Source: an uncultured Arenicella sp.
Lineage (GTDB): Bacteria; Pseudomonadota; Gammaproteobacteria; Arenicellales; Arenicellaceae
DNA: 64,000 nt
NCBI GenBank assembly: GCA_937922925.1
Contig: CALAKU010000003.1
Span: 1-64,000 of the forward strand
Direction of reading: 5' to 3'
Under the pieces are notes generated by a model that saw nothing but the letters and a program-made list of their open reading frames with translations, ran no database searches and had not been told where the DNA came from. Numbering within the stretch: position 1 is the first letter of the stretch; each line of letters starts with the position of its first letter. Both the position numbers and the translations under genes were made by a program. Shown here piece by piece: positions 1 through 6,266 of the stretch.

Positions 1-356
1 GTCATGCTAAACGTGGCAAGGCTTACATTGTGCTTGCTGCGCTTAACTTCTGGCGATTTAAGTTGCTGCACACCGTATTGCTCAACATTCTCTAAAGATG
101 AATGCTTGAGGCGAATATGATGAATGTCATTGACCGCGAACCGTTGCCCCGCTTCGGTATCAAACTCAAGATGTTGATCAAGCGCCTGGATGCGATTGGG
201 AATCGGCCACTGCTTATGTGAGTTATGCGGGTCAACTTCTGAGTCTATCCCCTGCTCAGTCAATAATCGGACCGCTTGATAAAAATCAAACTGATAGGGT
301 TGCTTGACTAGCTCGGATTCTAAATAAGTTCTTGTTCGCCCATCATCGCTGGCCAT
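1..356 (-). CDS. tssG: Type VI secretion baseplate subunit TssG (N-terminal part, cut by window edge)
   Basis: TssG pairs with TssF in the T6SS baseplate wedge on the cytoplasmic side of the inner membrane. Reading the minus strand from the ATG at 356 gives an uninterrupted 118-codon frame to the window edge. It contains the TssG-like N-terminal segment PYQFDFYQAVRLLTEQG, then a phenylalanine/isoleucine-rich stretch (about residues 65-90) consistent with the family. The start lies inside the 3' end of tssF (37-base overlap), which is common for this pair and suggests coupled translation. The remaining two thirds of the protein lies outside the window. The call rests on the N-terminal motif plus position. 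Confidence 0.85.
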   Translation of the reverse strand, partial: MASDDGRTRTYLESELVKQPYQFDFYQAVRLLTEQGIDSEVDPHNSHKQWPIPNRIQALDQHLEFDTEAGQRFAVNDIHHIRLKHSSLENVEQYGVQQLKSPEVKRSKHNVSLATFSM

Positions 357-2371
357 ATCTTGATCGCCTCCGTTTGTTGATTTGAGAACAGTTTCAGACG
401 CACAAAAGAGCCGACTGAAATAAACAAAGCGAGAAACCGTTGAACGATTTCACCAAACAATAAAATGCTGGTTTTACAACCGTGCAAACGATTCGCATCC
501 ATGTGCACGCTCATGCTTAGGCCTCGATAAAACCCGCGCCAAGCGTCTTCTCCCATATGGGTAAGCTCTTGTTCGGTAGACACATCGATAATTGCATCAA
601 TCAAACGCTGGTGAGCGACGTTATTCACGTCACAATACTGGCGCAGCAAATTTTGCAGTGTGACCGCATTTTGAGATTTAGATCGAGTTTGATCTCGCTC
701 ATCTTGAGTTTGTTCATCTTGGGCATCTGTATTGCCGGTCTCCCTTATTGAATTGTTCGACTCATCGCATAGAGTCGAAAAATTTAAGGTGAGGTGTGCG
801 ATAAGATCCCATGGTTGCCTGCCTCTCAGCGCCGGTTCTCTATAGGGCGTTGGCTTGCTAGCAACTACCACCAGATCAGTAGGGCCTTCTCCAATCAAGC
901 GCATTTGATTGCCGATACGTAGGTGTTCAACCAAGTCTCGATTAGTGCAGCTCACATGCGCAAATAACGATTGGCTGCTAGGCTGACTGATGTGAAAACT
1001 AGGGTCGTGAAACGATAAGAATGTTTCAGTGCCGGGGAAGCGCTCACCGTCGGTATAGTCGCGGCGGGAAGACCAATAACAGTCTTCGGTCTCGAGATTT
1101 AGCCCATCGGTCGTTGGCAAGAACGCGGGTATCTGTTTGGCATTGCCCTGCTCATCGACACCGATTACTTTATCAATGGAATGTATTTCACAGGTACGAT
1201 ACTGGCGCACGTCCGGGATCAACAAATACTCATATTCTTTATGATTTACGCGCACCGGCTCACTCACTAAATCATACAAGTTGATGCTCGGGATGCAGTT
1301 CGTCATCAAACTGTCTTTGTCTATTAAGCGACGATTTGACAAATCCACGTCAAAGAGAAAATACAGATCAAGGTGATCACCGTCGCATTGAATATCGTGC
1401 ACATCAAAGAAGAGAAACTTTTCTGGAAACAAAAAGTATTCTTGGATTAATCGGTAACCCGGATGCGAGCTTGCGGTGTAAGGCAGAATGGCCTGTTCCT
1501 GAGCAAAACCTTGCCAACTTAATGAGGCCTCATGGAATTGTTCAACGGTTTGTCTTGGCTGTTTATCTTTGCCTAGAATTGATTCCAAGTTCTCAGAAAA
1601 GCCTTTTACATCAAAATTGTTTTTTATCGCTGAATCAATGGTTTGAGATAAATCTATCTCAGGCTGCACTTGCTCAATGTCCTCATATTGAACTGAGGTG
1701 ACAACCGAAATTAAATTGCTATGCAGATGATCAAATAGATCGTAGGCGCGCTGATTTGATGGGTTTATAAATAAGCGTAATCGATCCAACTCCAGCTTAT
1801 CAAAGCTGACATCGTTTAGCGTTTTGAGCCGCAGTTTCAGCACCGAACGAACTCGGCGAGAATTATTTCTGAAGCGCTGTTCAATCGATTCAAACTCCTC
1901 CGCTGGCAATAAAGATAAGTCTTCAACTTCTATGGGCCAAAGTTGAGTTTCATAGGCCGTTTTCATGAAGCATTCGTGTTTTTGATTGTCTTGCGACTTT
2001 ACTTTGCGTTTAAACTGCCGCCCGCGTTCTAAGCGGAAAGGTTCAGTAAATCCTTTTACATCTGCCCTTGGGCTAACTTGCAATACCGCCATTGACGGTA
2101 TTGGTGTTTCCAAATGCGGATACAAGTACTTAAAGATATTCGAGGGCACCTGCGGCAACTCAGCGTCTAAGTTGTAGCGCAAACGAGCCGTCATGTATGA
2201 AAAGGCTTGCAACAACATTTCAACGTGCGGGTCATCTGAATGCCCTGAACCTAACCTGAGTTCACTGGCGACATCCGGGTAGTCTTCTGCAAACGCGGAA
2301 GCACGTGTTCGAATGGCTTGAATCTCGTCAAGAAAGTAGTCGACTACCTTTTCATTACCGCGGCTGATCAT
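320..2371 (-). CDS. tssF: Type VI secretion baseplate subunit TssF
   Basis: TssF (ImpG/VasA) forms the T6SS baseplate wedge with TssE, TssG and TssK. The 683-residue product opens with the family hallmark: an N-terminal helix (YFLDEIQAIR, 12-21), the DPHVEMLLQAFSYMTARL segment (47-64) and the LYPHLETPIPSM segment (83-94). The C-terminal GLSMSVHMDANRL stretch (617-629) and the final W-x-A motif also fit. It is longer than the roughly 580-620 residues I expect. Two stretches look like insertions: about 235-295, and a very hydrophilic Q/D/E/R/S segment at 534-568. Start is ATG at 2371, 23 bases after the tssE stop codon. The order tssE-tssF-tssG is classical for T6SS. Confidence 0.95.
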   Translation of the reverse strand: MISRGNEKVVDYFLDEIQAIRTRASAFAEDYPDVASELRLGSGHSDDPHVEMLLQAFSYMTARLRYNLDAELPQVPSNIFKYLYPHLETPIPSMAVLQVSPRADVKGFTEPFRLERGRQFKRKVKSQDNQKHECFMKTAYETQLWPIEVEDLSLLPAEEFESIEQRFRNNSRRVRSVLKLRLKTLNDVSFDKLELDRLRLFINPSNQRAYDLFDHLHSNLISVVTSVQYEDIEQVQPEIDLSQTIDSAIKNNFDVKGFSENLESILGKDKQPRQTVEQFHEASLSWQGFAQEQAILPYTASSHPGYRLIQEYFLFPEKFLFFDVHDIQCDGDHLDLYFLFDVDLSNRRLIDKDSLMTNCIPSINLYDLVSEPVRVNHKEYEYLLIPDVRQYRTCEIHSIDKVIGVDEQGNAKQIPAFLPTTDGLNLETEDCYWSSRRDYTDGERFPGTETFLSFHDPSFHISQPSSQSLFAHVSCTNRDLVEHLRIGNQMRLIGEGPTDLVVVASKPTPYREPALRGRQPWDLIAHLTLNFSTLCDESNNSIRETGNTDAQDEQTQDERDQTRSKSQNAVTLQNLLRQYCDVNNVAHQRLIDAIIDVSTEQELTHMGEDAWRGFYRGLSMSVHMDANRLHGCKTSILLFGEIVQRFLALFISVGSFVRLKLFSNQQTEAIKIWPAMMGEQELI

Positions 2372-2394: not shown

Positions 2395-2850
2395 TCATGC
2401 ATTGGCTTGATCGACTGAGTTTTCTTGGGCCAAACCTGGATACTGATCCAGCGACATGGTCAATGGGATAGTAAATTCCGCAGGGCTGTTAGACGCTTTC
2501 AGTCTCCCTTTAACTCGAACAATAAAGTTCAGGGGGTTGCTTGCATCCGGCTCAGCTTGCACACGGACATGACTTAGCCTTGGTTCATAAACCGTGATAG
2601 CACGATGCACCTGTTGAATTAAATCACTGAGTCTTGACTGGTTGCCTTCGCCACTGCTGACTAAGTCCTCCACGCCATAGTCAAGAATCGTATTAGTCGC
2701 ACATTGCTTAAAGCCTGAAAAATGCGATCTGGTATTCAAGAGGCGATCCAGCTCCATTTCAATTGAGGACACATAGGCTTTGTGCATTTGCGCAGAGCTC
2801 AATTGCTCGGCCGTTTGCGGCGCTATGATTCGGTCAAACAAACTACGCAT
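2395..2850 (-). CDS. tssE: Type VI secretion baseplate subunit TssE (gp25-like)
   Basis: A 151-residue protein of the gp25/TssE family, the wedge component homologous to phage T4 gp25 that helps start sheath polymerisation. Visible features are the N-terminal SLFDRI segment (3-8), a short basic region ending LLNTRSH, the DYGVEDL segment (57-63) and the helix with YEPRLSHVRV (93-102). The YEPRL motif is the conserved gp25 signature. Length is normal for TssE (about 130-170). The ATG at 2850 lies 5 bases after the hcp stop, so it is almost certainly co-transcribed and perhaps coupled. Confidence 0.93.
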   Translation of the reverse strand: MRSLFDRIIAPQTAEQLSSAQMHKAYVSSIEMELDRLLNTRSHFSGFKQCATNTILDYGVEDLVSSGEGNQSRLSDLIQQVHRAITVYEPRLSHVRVQAEPDASNPLNFIVRVKGRLKASNSPAEFTIPLTMSLDQYPGLAQENSVDQANA

Positions 2851-2855
2851 CGTTC

Positions 2856-3452
2856 CTAACCGCCGTAACTCTCACTAAATTGGTTAGGACGATTACGCGC
2901 CACACTCCAGTTGGCCACTTTCGAGCCAATGATCTGAGCGTTAACGTCTTGCGCCGAATAAGTCCACTGAATGTCGGTGAAATTGAGCGTGACTTGTTCA
3001 GTCGGCATATCGTTGGGATGCGACTGACACTCGATTGAGCTCACAATCACATTGCGCATTTCAATCGTCATTATGTTCGCTATGTTGTCTTCCTCTGACT
3101 CGCCAGGGGCATTGCGTAATAAAAACAGCCGGGTTGGATTATCGGGCGAGCCGTCATCTAACGGCGTTGCCGTTAAGCACTGCTTATAGAGTGTGGTTGA
3201 GGTTTTGTCGTAATACTTAATGCATGTAATATCGGTCAGGCTGGGTCGTCCAGAGGTTCTAGCGGAATTACTCACATCGGTCGTCATTTGCTGTTTCATT
3301 GCATAGTGGTACGACATCAATTCAATCGAATTGGTAAGCGCATCGTCGGCACCAAACTTATTAACTTTGCCATCTATGCGACTGCCACCGCCTTTAATTT
3401 CACCGCCGCTCACAATATCGGGGTTACCGGGTTTTAGAAGTACGAGATCCAT
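2856..3452 (-). CDS. hcp: Hcp-family type VI tube protein (TssD)
   Basis: Hcp forms the stacked hexameric rings of the T6SS inner tube and is both structural and secreted. The 198-residue product has the Hcp pattern: an N-terminal strand, a central SIELMSYHYAM segment (about 42-52), a CIKYYDKTSTTLYKQC stretch (76-91) matching the conserved region where substrates stack on the tube, and the C-terminal VTLNFTDIQWTYSAQD motif (153-168). It is longer than the usual 160-175 residues, with an insert near 98-120 and a hydrophilic C-terminal tail after 168. It lies between the sheath fusion and tssE. Because it sits inside the structural operon, it is more likely the main tube subunit than an orphan Hcp. 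Confidence 0.92.
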   Translation of the reverse strand: MDLVLLKPGNPDIVSGGEIKGGGSRIDGKVNKFGADDALTNSIELMSYHYAMKQQMTTDVSNSARTSGRPSLTDITCIKYYDKTSTTLYKQCLTATPLDDGSPDNPTRLFLLRNAPGESEEDNIANIMTIEMRNVIVSSIECQSHPNDMPTEQVTLNFTDIQWTYSAQDVNAQIIGSKVANWSVARNRPNQFSESYGG

Positions 3453-3487: not shown

Positions 3488-5464
3488 TTAGGCTGGCAAA
3501 TCGGCCACTAAGCGAATTGATGTGGTTAACTCTTCGAGCTGAAAATGAGGTTTTAGAAATACCGTTGCTCGATAAGAACCGGGGCGCCCGGGAATGTCAG
3601 CCACCACCACTTTTGCCTGACGCAGCGGATAACGCGCTTTGATTTCCTGTGGCGGAGAATCATCAAGCAGAACGTATTGTGATATCCAAGTATTGAGATA
3701 GTCCTCGACATTGCCTCGGGTTAGAAAAGAGCCAATTTTGTCGCGCATAATCACCTTGATGTAATGCGCAAAACGAGACGCCGCCATAACGTAAGGCAGC
3801 ATCGATGAGATGCGGGAATTCGCGTTCGCTTCGTCGGTGTTATAGAGCTTTGGCTGGTTGGTGCTTTGGCCGCCAAAGAATGCGGCCTTGCTGCTGCCTT
3901 TTTGATGACAAATCGCCATAAAGCCTAAATCATTGAGTTCTTTTTCGCGCCGATCGGTAATGGCTACCTCTGTTGGACAGGCTATTTCCTCATCGCCCTG
4001 CGCAGTCTTAAAGTCATACAGTGGCAAGCCTTCGACCAGGCCGCCACCTTCAACACCGCGAATCGCGGCTGTCCATTTGTAGAGTGAAAACGCATTAGTA
4101 ATGCGTTCAGCCAAAATATAGGCAGCCCCACTCCAAACGAAACTCTCTGAATTTAAAGCGTCTATTGATTCAGAGTAAGACAGGCCTTTAACCGGGTTTT
4201 TAATCTTGTCATAAGGTCGGCGAATTAAGACTCTTGGCATGGTCAGTGTGACATATCGAGAATCCTCAGTTTCGCGAAACTCGCGCCATGAAATAAGTTC
4301 CTGGCTTTCAAAAAGCTTGGTTAAATCACGAGGTTTGTGCAGCGACGAATAGTCAGAAATGTCAAAAAGTTTAGACTTCGCGTTCGTGATAAACGGCGCA
4401 TGCGCGGCGGCGGCCACCTTACTTATCTCTTCTAGAAATCGAAAGTCTTGCGGTAAGCGGCCAATCTCATAGTCGCCAATCAAGACGCTGAATGGATCGC
4501 CACCAAAGGTGCCGTATTCAGCCTCGTAGATCTTTTTAAACAAAGCCGACTGATCCGTCTCCACGGCCTTTGACATGTCGTCTAACAGTTCATCTCGTGT
4601 CGCGTTTAATAAACGAAGTTTGAGATATTTTCCAGTTCTGGTTTTATCGACCAAATAGTGTAGGCCACGCCAAGACCCCTCGAGTGTGCGAAATTTTTCG
4701 TGATGCAAAATGGCATCTAATGCCACACGCAGCATTTCGTCAATCCTTCCGATTCGCAAGGTAATTGCGTCAACAGAATCCTCTAGGGCGTCGGCTTTGT
4801 TATCGCCAAAAACGCCGGTGGCAAACGCCCCGAGCAATTTCATTGCCGTGGGCTTTTGATGCTCATCAAGTACCATTTTACCGTCATTAATAATTGTCTC
4901 TGCGACATCAGCTGGTGCAATTTTGCCCCACTCAGATTCAGGTTTATTCTTGAATAAATCGGCCAGCTTTTTCTTGTCGGCAGCGGTTCCTTTGGTGGTA
5001 TTCAATAAGGCATGCAATGCGTCGTTTCCATCGACTTTTGCGAGCAAATCTCGTAGATGCTTGCGCTCAACATAAAGCGTATTGAGGCGTTCAACTCGTT
5101 GCACAACCATTTGTGGTTCAAAGTGTTCAACCTTTGTGAAATCAATCACCACCTTGGCACGATCCCATGCAAATTCAGGAGCCGGATTCGGTTTTTGATC
5201 GGCCGTTAAGGCCTCCCATTCAAGTTCGAGTCGGGGATTAATCTTCTCAAGTACTTCGTCAAAATTGTCGCGATCAAGCTGCACGAACTTACGTTCCTTT
5301 AATGGCTCTAGAGGCGATTCTGGATCACCTGAGAGATCTGCGAGAATCCCTGCAATAAAGGGCAGCTCTCTCATCTGGATCGCATCGCCTATTTCAACGT
5401 CGTAGGTGATTTGAACCCGCGGTGGCCTGGTCCGGCCTATTTCATTTTGATAGCTTTCATTCAC
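3488..5464 (-). CDS. tssBC: Natural TssB-TssC fusion, single-chain T6SS contractile sheath protein
   Basis: Canonical T6SS sheaths are built from two separate proteins, TssB (VipA, about 165 residues) and TssC (VipB, about 495). Here one uninterrupted 658-residue frame carries both. Residues 1 to about 158 are TssB: RVQITYDVEIGDA (16-28), MRELPFIAGILADLSG (31-46), VERLNTLYVERKHLRDLLAK (124-143). A linker follows (about 159-184), then TssC from about 185 to the end: VALDAILHH (247-255), EGSWRGLHYLV (262-272), YEAEYGTFGGDPF (313-325), and a C-terminal sheath domain to 658. No stop codon or frame change separates the parts. The start is GTG at 5464 with an upstream GAGG; there is no ATG before codon 31, inside a conserved TssB motif. 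Such a chain resembles the single-protein sheaths of contractile phages. Confidence 0.93.
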   Translation of the reverse strand: MNESYQNEIGRTRPPRVQITYDVEIGDAIQMRELPFIAGILADLSGDPESPLEPLKERKFVQLDRDNFDEVLEKINPRLELEWEALTADQKPNPAPEFAWDRAKVVIDFTKVEHFEPQMVVQRVERLNTLYVERKHLRDLLAKVDGNDALHALLNTTKGTAADKKKLADLFKNKPESEWGKIAPADVAETIINDGKMVLDEHQKPTAMKLLGAFATGVFGDNKADALEDSVDAITLRIGRIDEMLRVALDAILHHEKFRTLEGSWRGLHYLVDKTRTGKYLKLRLLNATRDELLDDMSKAVETDQSALFKKIYEAEYGTFGGDPFSVLIGDYEIGRLPQDFRFLEEISKVAAAAHAPFITNAKSKLFDISDYSSLHKPRDLTKLFESQELISWREFRETEDSRYVTLTMPRVLIRRPYDKIKNPVKGLSYSESIDALNSESFVWSGAAYILAERITNAFSLYKWTAAIRGVEGGGLVEGLPLYDFKTAQGDEEIACPTEVAITDRREKELNDLGFMAICHQKGSSKAAFFGGQSTNQPKLYNTDEANANSRISSMLPYVMAASRFAHYIKVIMRDKIGSFLTRGNVEDYLNTWISQYVLLDDSPPQEIKARYPLRQAKVVVADIPGRPGSYRATVFLKPHFQLEELTTSIRLVADLPA

Positions 5465-5494: not shown

Positions 5495-5529
5495 TTTTAG
5501 CTTGCCTTGCTTTTTTTAGCTTGCCTTGC
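5495..5529. repeat. Two-copy 16-base direct repeat at a gene boundary
   Basis: The 16-mer TTTTAGCTTGCCTTGC occurs at 5495-5510 and again at 5514-5529, offset 19 bases. The second copy forms the last codons and stop of the small T6SS gene on the minus strand; the first lies in the spacer before the sheath gene. This looks like a slipped duplication of the gene's 3' end. Confidence 0.85.
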
Positions 5530-5755
5530 TGTAGAGTGTTTGGTCACCGAAGTTTCGCTTCACGATTTTTTTCTCGATAACTAGAAACTCCAACGCTTTT
5601 TCTACGACCTCAACCGATTCTTCGATTCGTTGTCGCGGGATCCACCACTTTGCAATTCCCTCAGCGGTCTCGGCAGCATTGGGACGCTTGTTGATGTAGT
5701 CGCTAATCTCTCCTGCTACGGATTCGATGATGTCTTGCCCATTTTTTGGATACAT
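5516..5755 (-). CDS. Small winged-helix-like protein heading the T6SS operon
   Basis: A 79-residue product starting at the ATG at 5755, with a weak GAG upstream; a TTG twelve bases earlier would add four residues and has no better ribosome site. The sequence reads as a small three-helix/winged-helix fold: helix IIESVAGEISDYINKRP, a segment AETAEGIAKWWI (31-42), helix VEVVEKALEFLVIEKKI, then a short strand KRNFGDQTLYSK. This resembles effector-less MarR/ArsR-like or adaptor modules rather than a full regulator. I do not recognise a named family. Position as first gene after the sigma-54 type promoter, 51 bases upstream of the sheath fusion, ties it to the T6SS. It could be a regulator or an assembly adaptor. 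Confidence 0.75.
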   Translation of the reverse strand: MYPKNGQDIIESVAGEISDYINKRPNAAETAEGIAKWWIPRQRIEESVEVVEKALEFLVIEKKIVKRNFGDQTLYSKAS

Positions 5756-5809
5756 AGATTCACTCAAATTTGTGGTTGATGGTTTTAGCTGATTTCACCT
5801 CTTCCTTTC

Positions 5810-5825
5810 AGCACGGACCGTGCCA
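5810..5825 (-). promoter_or_regulatory. Sigma-54 type -24/-12 promoter of the T6SS operon
   Basis: On the minus strand the sequence reads TGGCACG, four bases, then GTGCT. The sigma-54 consensus is TGGCACR-N4-TTGCW, so the spacing is exact and only one position (G for T) differs. Transcription would start about 12 bases further on, near 5798, roughly 40 bases before the ATG at 5755. The same stretch is a near-perfect palindrome (GCACGG/CCGTGC), so an operator is an alternative reading. Sigma-54 control of T6SS operons is known in Vibrio and others through VasH-type activators; no such activator gene is in this window. Confidence 0.65.
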
Positions 5826-6189: not shown

Positions 6190-6266
6190 CTCCCCGTAGC
6201 ATAATTGGATAATGCAATCGCCTCCTAAGCGATAGATTGTTGGTTCGAGTCCAATCGGGGAGGCCA
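6190..6266 (+). tRNA. tRNA-Arg (anticodon CCT)
   Basis: A full cloverleaf can be drawn. The acceptor stem is CTCCCCG (6190-6196) with CGGGGAG (6256-6262). The D arm has GCAT/ATGC around an AATTGGATA loop. The anticodon stem is ATCGC/GCGAT (6217-6221, 6229-6233) around loop CTCCTAA, giving anticodon CCT (6224-6226), which reads AGG. The T arm is GTTGG-TTCGAGT-CCAAT. G6263 is the discriminator and CCA (6264-6266) is encoded. No second copy of its 3' end was seen in the window, so there is no sign of a tRNA-targeted island here. Confidence 0.95.

Follow-up and report, generated by a model that had tools for sequence, protein, structure and literature searches.

The sheath gene of the window, the whole stretch of 64,000 nucleotides from an uncultured Arenicella sp. 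that was analysed here, encodes TssB and TssC as one uninterrupted chain, and we put the probability at roughly three in four that this protein serves as the only sheath subunit in a distinct type VI secretion system (T6SS) lineage whose sheath ClpV does not recycle. In the usual view ClpV is a hallmark of the T6SS, and TssB and TssC are two proteins.

The coding frame lies on the minus strand, which the sequence-only reading had left unstated, and runs from a GTG at 5464 to the stop at 3488, while the plus strand of the same region carries many stops. The description of one 658-codon frame composed of a TssB part (residues 1 to about 158), a linker and a TssC part (about 185 to 658) is borne out by the open reading frame, by Pfam (T6SS_VipA at residues 10-168, E 5e-37; VipB at 237-535, 3e-119; VipB_2 at 545-656, 3e-45) and by the NCBIfam models TIGR03358 (TssB, 6-165) and TIGR03355 (TssC, 187-657), both above their curated cut-offs (Table 1). 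This gene is also the only VipB match in its own genome. That the window's TssBC is a naturally occurring sheath protein of one chain, belonging to a distinct T6SS lineage, is supported.

Table 1. Features of the fused sheath operon and its upstream region, in window coordinates
Feature	Position	Strand	Basis or remark
tssBC, fused TssB-TssC sheath gene, GTG start	3488..5464	minus	658-codon stop-free ORF, 5464->3488
TssB (VipA) domain, residues 6-165	4970..5449	minus	TIGR03358, 125.9 bits against a cut-off of 97
Junction, residues 166-236, predicted helical, pLDDT ~76-92	4757..4969	minus	AlphaFold2 model
Equivalent of the ClpV-docking helix, residues 185-197 ADVAETIINDGKM, LLD motif lost	4874..4912	minus	N-terminal alignment
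TssC (VipB) domain, residues 237-656	3497..4756	minus	PF05943 and PF18945
hcp (tube, TssD)	2856..3452	minus	PF05638, E 2e-21
tssE (gp25-like baseplate)	2395..2850	minus	TIGR03357 above cut-off
tssF	320..2371	minus	TIGR03359 above cut-off
tssG, 5' part only, at contig start	3..356	minus	home-made HMM of the TssG of congener G015
Small winged-helix protein, GIxxWW family	5516..5767	minus	ATG at 5755 or TTG at 5767
Sigma-54 (-24/-12) promoter-like site TGGCACGGTCCGTGC	5811..5825	minus	43 bp upstream of the TTG at 5767

A joined frame in a fragmented metagenome-assembled genome (MAG) might be suspected of being an assembly or frameshift artefact, yet the same stop-free fusion is present in two congeners (G015, 65% identity; G017, 68%) and in many independent genomes, isolates included, so that a sequencing error as the source of the fusion can be set aside with near certainty. 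A scan of 84,980 species genomes, from which the best 80 loci were kept, gave for the most part either uninterrupted fusions some 630-780 aa long or tssB and tssC as separate neighbouring genes, each counted fusion being verified from stop to stop with home-made TssB and TssC HMMs. Among the fetched loci 47 distinct fused rows were obtained, to which a later sample added three genomes. They comprise isolates of Marinomonas, Thalassolituus, Oceanobacter, Bacterioplanes, Algicola, Planctobacterium, Aliagarivorans, Chitiniphilus, Chitinimonas and Trinickia, as well as MAGs labelled Finniella, Caedibacter, SAR324 and Nitrospinaceae; in cultured isolates such as Bacterioplanes sanyensis, Thalassolituus alkanivorans and Aliagarivorans marinus, among others, the fused type is the sole T6SS detected. 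Several candidates were rejected: the 692 aa frame first listed for G241 consists of two ORFs, the frame-length listing having bridged stop codons, a TGA separates tssB from tssC in G176, and supposed extra fused copies in G206 (contig C15), G216 (C70) and G222 (C9 and C16) are separate genes beside ClpV. Overall the fusion is rare: an even sample of the class contained 58 genomes that matched TssC strongly, of which only the window's genome and one congener were fused, and in an even sample of the phylum three besides the window's own were fused among 84; none of the 30 best sheath matches listed on plasmids was annotated as a fusion.

Both domains and the linker are under purifying selection, with dN/dS between close pairs of 0.01-0.09 over TssC and 0.04-0.17 over the linker. 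In a quick tree of the TssC domain (99 rows, junction excluded), 32 of the 47 fused rows, the window included, form one clade (SH-aLRT 99), while the 15 others are placed among alphaproteobacterial rows and mixed with separate ones. The fused or separate label changes five times on this tree, two of the changes being forced by well-supported branches; there were at least two fusions, or a fusion and a re-splitting. The earlier proposal of a distinct T6SS subclass thus holds in the sense of a distinct lineage, but not of one confined to a single clade, given at least two origins and many genera.

The gene neighbours are those of a conventional T6SS. The window operon reads tssBC-hcp-tssE-F-G and is ended within tssG by the start of the contig; because contig C3 starts with the first base of the window, the remainder of the cluster falls outside it. 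The genes whose synteny had been proposed as a check, namely the winged-helix-like gene, hcp and tssE, F and G, are all present beside the window's tssBC, tssG in part. In congener G015 the cluster includes Hcp, TssE, TssF, TssG, VgrG, TssK, TssL, TssM and TssA, and at 33 fused loci, some of them overlapping pairs, TssBC, Hcp, TssE, F, G, K, L and M are encoded on a single contig without ClpV. TssA is also found in fused clusters, as is a candidate TssJ-like lipoprotein (u164 family), which shows a lipobox-like N-terminus, precedes tssK and matches no Pfam model. The alphaproteobacterial fused clusters were followed as far as tssE. Between tssG and tssK, G015 (L113, 8386-12946) and other fused loci in one branch of the fused clade carry an effector-like cassette of VgrG, DUF2169-pentapeptide, pentapeptide, DUF3540 and PAAR-like genes, which is missing from the compact marine branch.

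What sets these clusters apart is the lack of ClpV, which was searched for with TIGR03345 at its curated cut-off, the positions of the matches being compared with those of the sheath genes. None of the 38 scorable fused clusters encodes it, against 33 of 37 clusters of relatives with separate TssB and TssC, and it is equally absent from all three fused clusters of the later sample. Most fused genomes, among them the window's own (G000), G015 and G017, are devoid of a ClpV above the cut-off altogether, as are G540 and G588 of the later sample. Where a fused genome does encode ClpV, the gene accompanies a separate tssB/tssC pair or sits on a different contig; in G731 of the later sample it lies 63 kb off, beside another, separate TssC, and in genomes with several T6SS the ClpV genes adjoin separate tssB and tssC. 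Single-contig maps of the separate relatives read tssB-tssC-hcp-tssE-tssF-tssG-clpV-vgrG, and the slot after tssG is held in fused clusters by vgrG or the TssJ-like gene; in the later sample ClpV was adjacent in seven of nine separate relatives. The absence from the window's own genome rests on an incomplete assembly, a MAG of 104 contigs that is 87.6% complete and in which the cluster is cut at tssG, and the argument is carried instead by the 99% complete G015.

The fusion is not needed for ClpV loss, since four to six relatives with separate subunits have no ClpV either (L075, L083, L096 and L102, with G863 and G867 added by the later sample), which is compatible with ClpV having been lost first and the subunits fused second. 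In two of these, L096 and L102 (Acidobacteriales bacterium 59-55 and an unclassified MAG), tssB and tssC are separate, tssG is followed by vgrG and no ClpV exceeds the cut-off in the genome. Fusion and ClpV absence are strongly associated within few origins; causality is unproven because most fused rows belong to one clade and a phylogenetically independent comparison leaves only two to four contrasts, for which a sign test is not significant.

The docking site has been lost as well. The N-terminus of TssC has the form [L/S]LLD-x-I-x-x-E/D-G in relatives with ClpV, and the hydrophobic-hydrophobic-acidic pattern at LLD is kept in 29 of 30 of these and in all four separate rows without ClpV, but in none of 45 fused rows; the Fisher p-value for this contrast takes no account of relatedness. 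As the four ClpV-less separate rows retain LLD, motif loss tracks the fusion and not the loss of ClpV. It is also local, because the segment just after LLD (GxMxxDxSQxPYAxxLIGxF) is kept in most fused rows; the length of the junction was set against the C-terminal tail of TssB and the N-terminal tail of TssC of separate genes. The sequence-only reading, which reasoned that with an internal TssC helix sheath recycling must use a different handle or not occur as known, was right in that recycling as known cannot apply, but the position of the helix is not the sole reason, as the ClpV gene is absent and LLD has decayed.

An AlphaFold2 model built with 37 fused sequences (mean pLDDT 76, pTM 0.73) predicts a helical junction, with block means of pLDDT of 76-92 over residues 150-240. 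Superposed on whole TssC chains the model deviates by an rmsd of about 16 Å, and only local and Z-score matches were used because the overall domain arrangement is less certain. Its best structural matches are solved T6SS sheaths, and single-chain sheaths of phages and extracellular contractile injection systems (eCIS) align across both of its halves (residues 30-540, Z about 15), the best of these alignments giving 3.4-3.8 Å over about 235 residues. The model fits the view that fusion brings back a single chain of the phage type. Among the linkers between subunits of the T6SS sheath is the N-terminus of TssB (PMC5797969), which stays free in the fusion.

Compared with the canonical TssB/TssC (VipA/VipB) pair, the window's protein has both domains, with high similarity, and the same gene neighbours but consists of one chain and not two, has lost the ClpV docking motif and is encoded in a cluster without ClpV; the closest solved structure is the extended sheath of Azotobacter vinelandii (9n4v; TssC E 1e-191, TssB E 3e-36). 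A TssB-TssC fusion alone is not unprecedented, because a natural VipA and VipB fusion of roseobacters, TssCL, was published in 2022 (PMC9515649). That protein has 1,684 aa and two VipA domains and is encoded beside intact tssB and tssC, whereas the fusions described here span 630-780 aa (658 aa and one VipA domain in the window) and are the sole sheath gene of their cluster. Within the literature searched, which excluded subscription papers and preprints, no description of this lineage, of a sole-sheath fusion or of its link to ClpV absence was found. Neither is ClpV strictly required for T6SS membership, as the T6SS of the Francisella pathogenicity island (FPI) and of Campylobacter/Helicobacter do without it (PMC5481754; PMC3667781). 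These share the missing ClpV gene with the fused clusters but retain separate subunits (IglA/IglB and TssB/TssC), and Francisella IglB is not close in sequence (3j9o, E 4e-65 against 1e-191 for 9n4v). The sheaths of phages, pyocins and eCIS (PVC/Afp) resemble the window's protein in being single chains without ClpV and in having a fold that corresponds to its own over both halves, but are only about 10% identical to it, lack a TssJLM complex and have another helical outer domain. Nor does the window's protein belong with the eCIS- or phage-type sheaths as defined by Phage_sheath Pfam domains and eCIS genes (Pvc16, CIS_tube, DUF4157-type): only VipA and VipB models were matched in it, and its likeness to those sheaths is one of fold only.

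The reading we favour can be put as follows. The join between TssB and TssC coincides with the site at which other T6SS have the ancestral sheath gene divided. This site falls within the helical portion of the sheath that is exposed at its surface, and the N-terminus of TssB and the C-terminus of TssC, which interlock neighbouring subunits, therefore stay free. The single chains would assemble around Hcp, with an ordinary TssE-F-G-K baseplate and a TssJ-L-M membrane complex, and would contract and fire in the manner of a phage tail. With neither ClpV nor its docking motif present, the contracted sheath would not be recycled by ClpV.

What becomes of the sheath after contraction may follow either of two courses, each of which we rate a little below even odds. 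The housekeeping disaggregase ClpB might replace ClpV and dismantle the fused sheath for reuse, as in Francisella, which without ClpV needs ClpB for sheath disassembly (PMC5481754). Nearly all these genomes encode ClpB-like proteins, which score about 800-850 bits to the ClpV model and so fall short of its cut-off, but their presence does not discriminate because ClpB is nearly universal; moreover, no linkage of a ClpB gene to the cluster was seen, and the TssC helix motif is lost while no new conserved recognition site has been identified. The fused sheath might, on the other hand, be used once and be diluted or degraded after contraction, as in phage tails and eCIS. Phage, pyocin and eCIS single-chain sheaths work without ClpV, and the fused clusters are without it throughout, those that were annotated encoding no other unfoldase either; single use would, however, be costly for a cell-bound weapon, and the other ClpV-less T6SS that have been tested use ClpB. 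That another unfoldase dismantles the fused sheath appears improbable.

Two further explanations would deny the single-chain sheath or its function. Conserved Met residues in the junction of part of the family could hint at a polyprotein or an internal start that yields separate TssB and TssC, which we regard as quite improbable: an in-frame start with a Shine-Dalgarno-like tract occurs in the junction of only eight of 47 fused genes, at scattered positions, with none in that of the window, and the junction is predicted to be ordered and helical. Alternatively, the fused lineage might comprise decaying, non-functional remnants, fusion and ClpV loss being signs of degradation. The lost ClpV would agree with this, as would T6SS-1 of Azoarcus olearius BH72, cited here for its missing tssH only, which is induced during nitrogen fixation and expressed but for which secretion was not seen (PMC6423157). 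Complete clusters and intact frames in many genera, low dN/dS and a conserved promoter and companion gene make decay a very remote prospect.

The companion gene encodes the GIxxWW protein, predicted to be a winged helix that matches DNA-binding winged helices, among other winged helices, with Z 11. It lies upstream of fused tssBC in 46 locus matches (27 distinct, overlapping loci being counted in the former), and no such gene precedes separate tssB in the fetched loci. Twelve fused genomes, several with two to four T6SS, have one clear copy each, which shares a contig with the fused gene in 11 of them and is on a different contig in G212; in the main clade the gene marks the fused cluster, and we infer a role in operon regulation. 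On plasmids it had no match. The sigma-54-like site is the sole match in the window (0.08 expected), and a -24/-12 site precedes the GIxxWW gene in most main-clade members, with a perfect match in eight of the 32 loci listed. In the phylum sample the gene occurs in four genomes, three of them fused, the fourth being G538, in which an eCIS cluster (sheaths, CIS_tube) follows it; the class sample adds G189, where it is found at an eCIS cluster (Phage_sheath, Pvc16_N), and G268, where it is located beside a sigma-54 activator at a contig end. Such activators also adjoin it in IMCC1989 (L034), G731 and G189. With a related winged-helix gene at two eCIS clusters, the protein is possibly a regulator common to single-chain contractile machines, and its occurrence at both fused T6SS and eCIS is a hint that these two types of machine have exchanged regulatory parts.

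A bolder reading, doubtful to us as a whole, is that the sheath is back at its ancestral single-chain, ClpV-free state, as a single-use phage-like contractile injector within a complete TssJKLM envelope machine with sigma-54 control and the winged-helix regulator shared with eCIS. New here are the winged-helix gene and sigma-54-like promoter before most fused main-clade operons. A lineage that is fused, ClpV-less and motif-less offers a natural experiment on the reason for the splitting of the sheath; the site of the split lies in the outer helical domain, on which the ClpV-binding helix is displayed, and the prediction is that a split sheath and recycling by ClpV occur together. For structural work, too, a sheath made from one gene is simpler.

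Two observations concern the surroundings of the gene. In Holosporales-type MAGs (L042, L098, L101 and L136) the fused tssBC is accompanied by tssE and a small unassigned gene, no further T6SS genes having been recognised near it, the cluster being diverged or scattered. In the window, a tRNA-Arg (CCT) gene at 6190-6266 on the plus strand directly adjoins the T6SS operon and could mark an island boundary.
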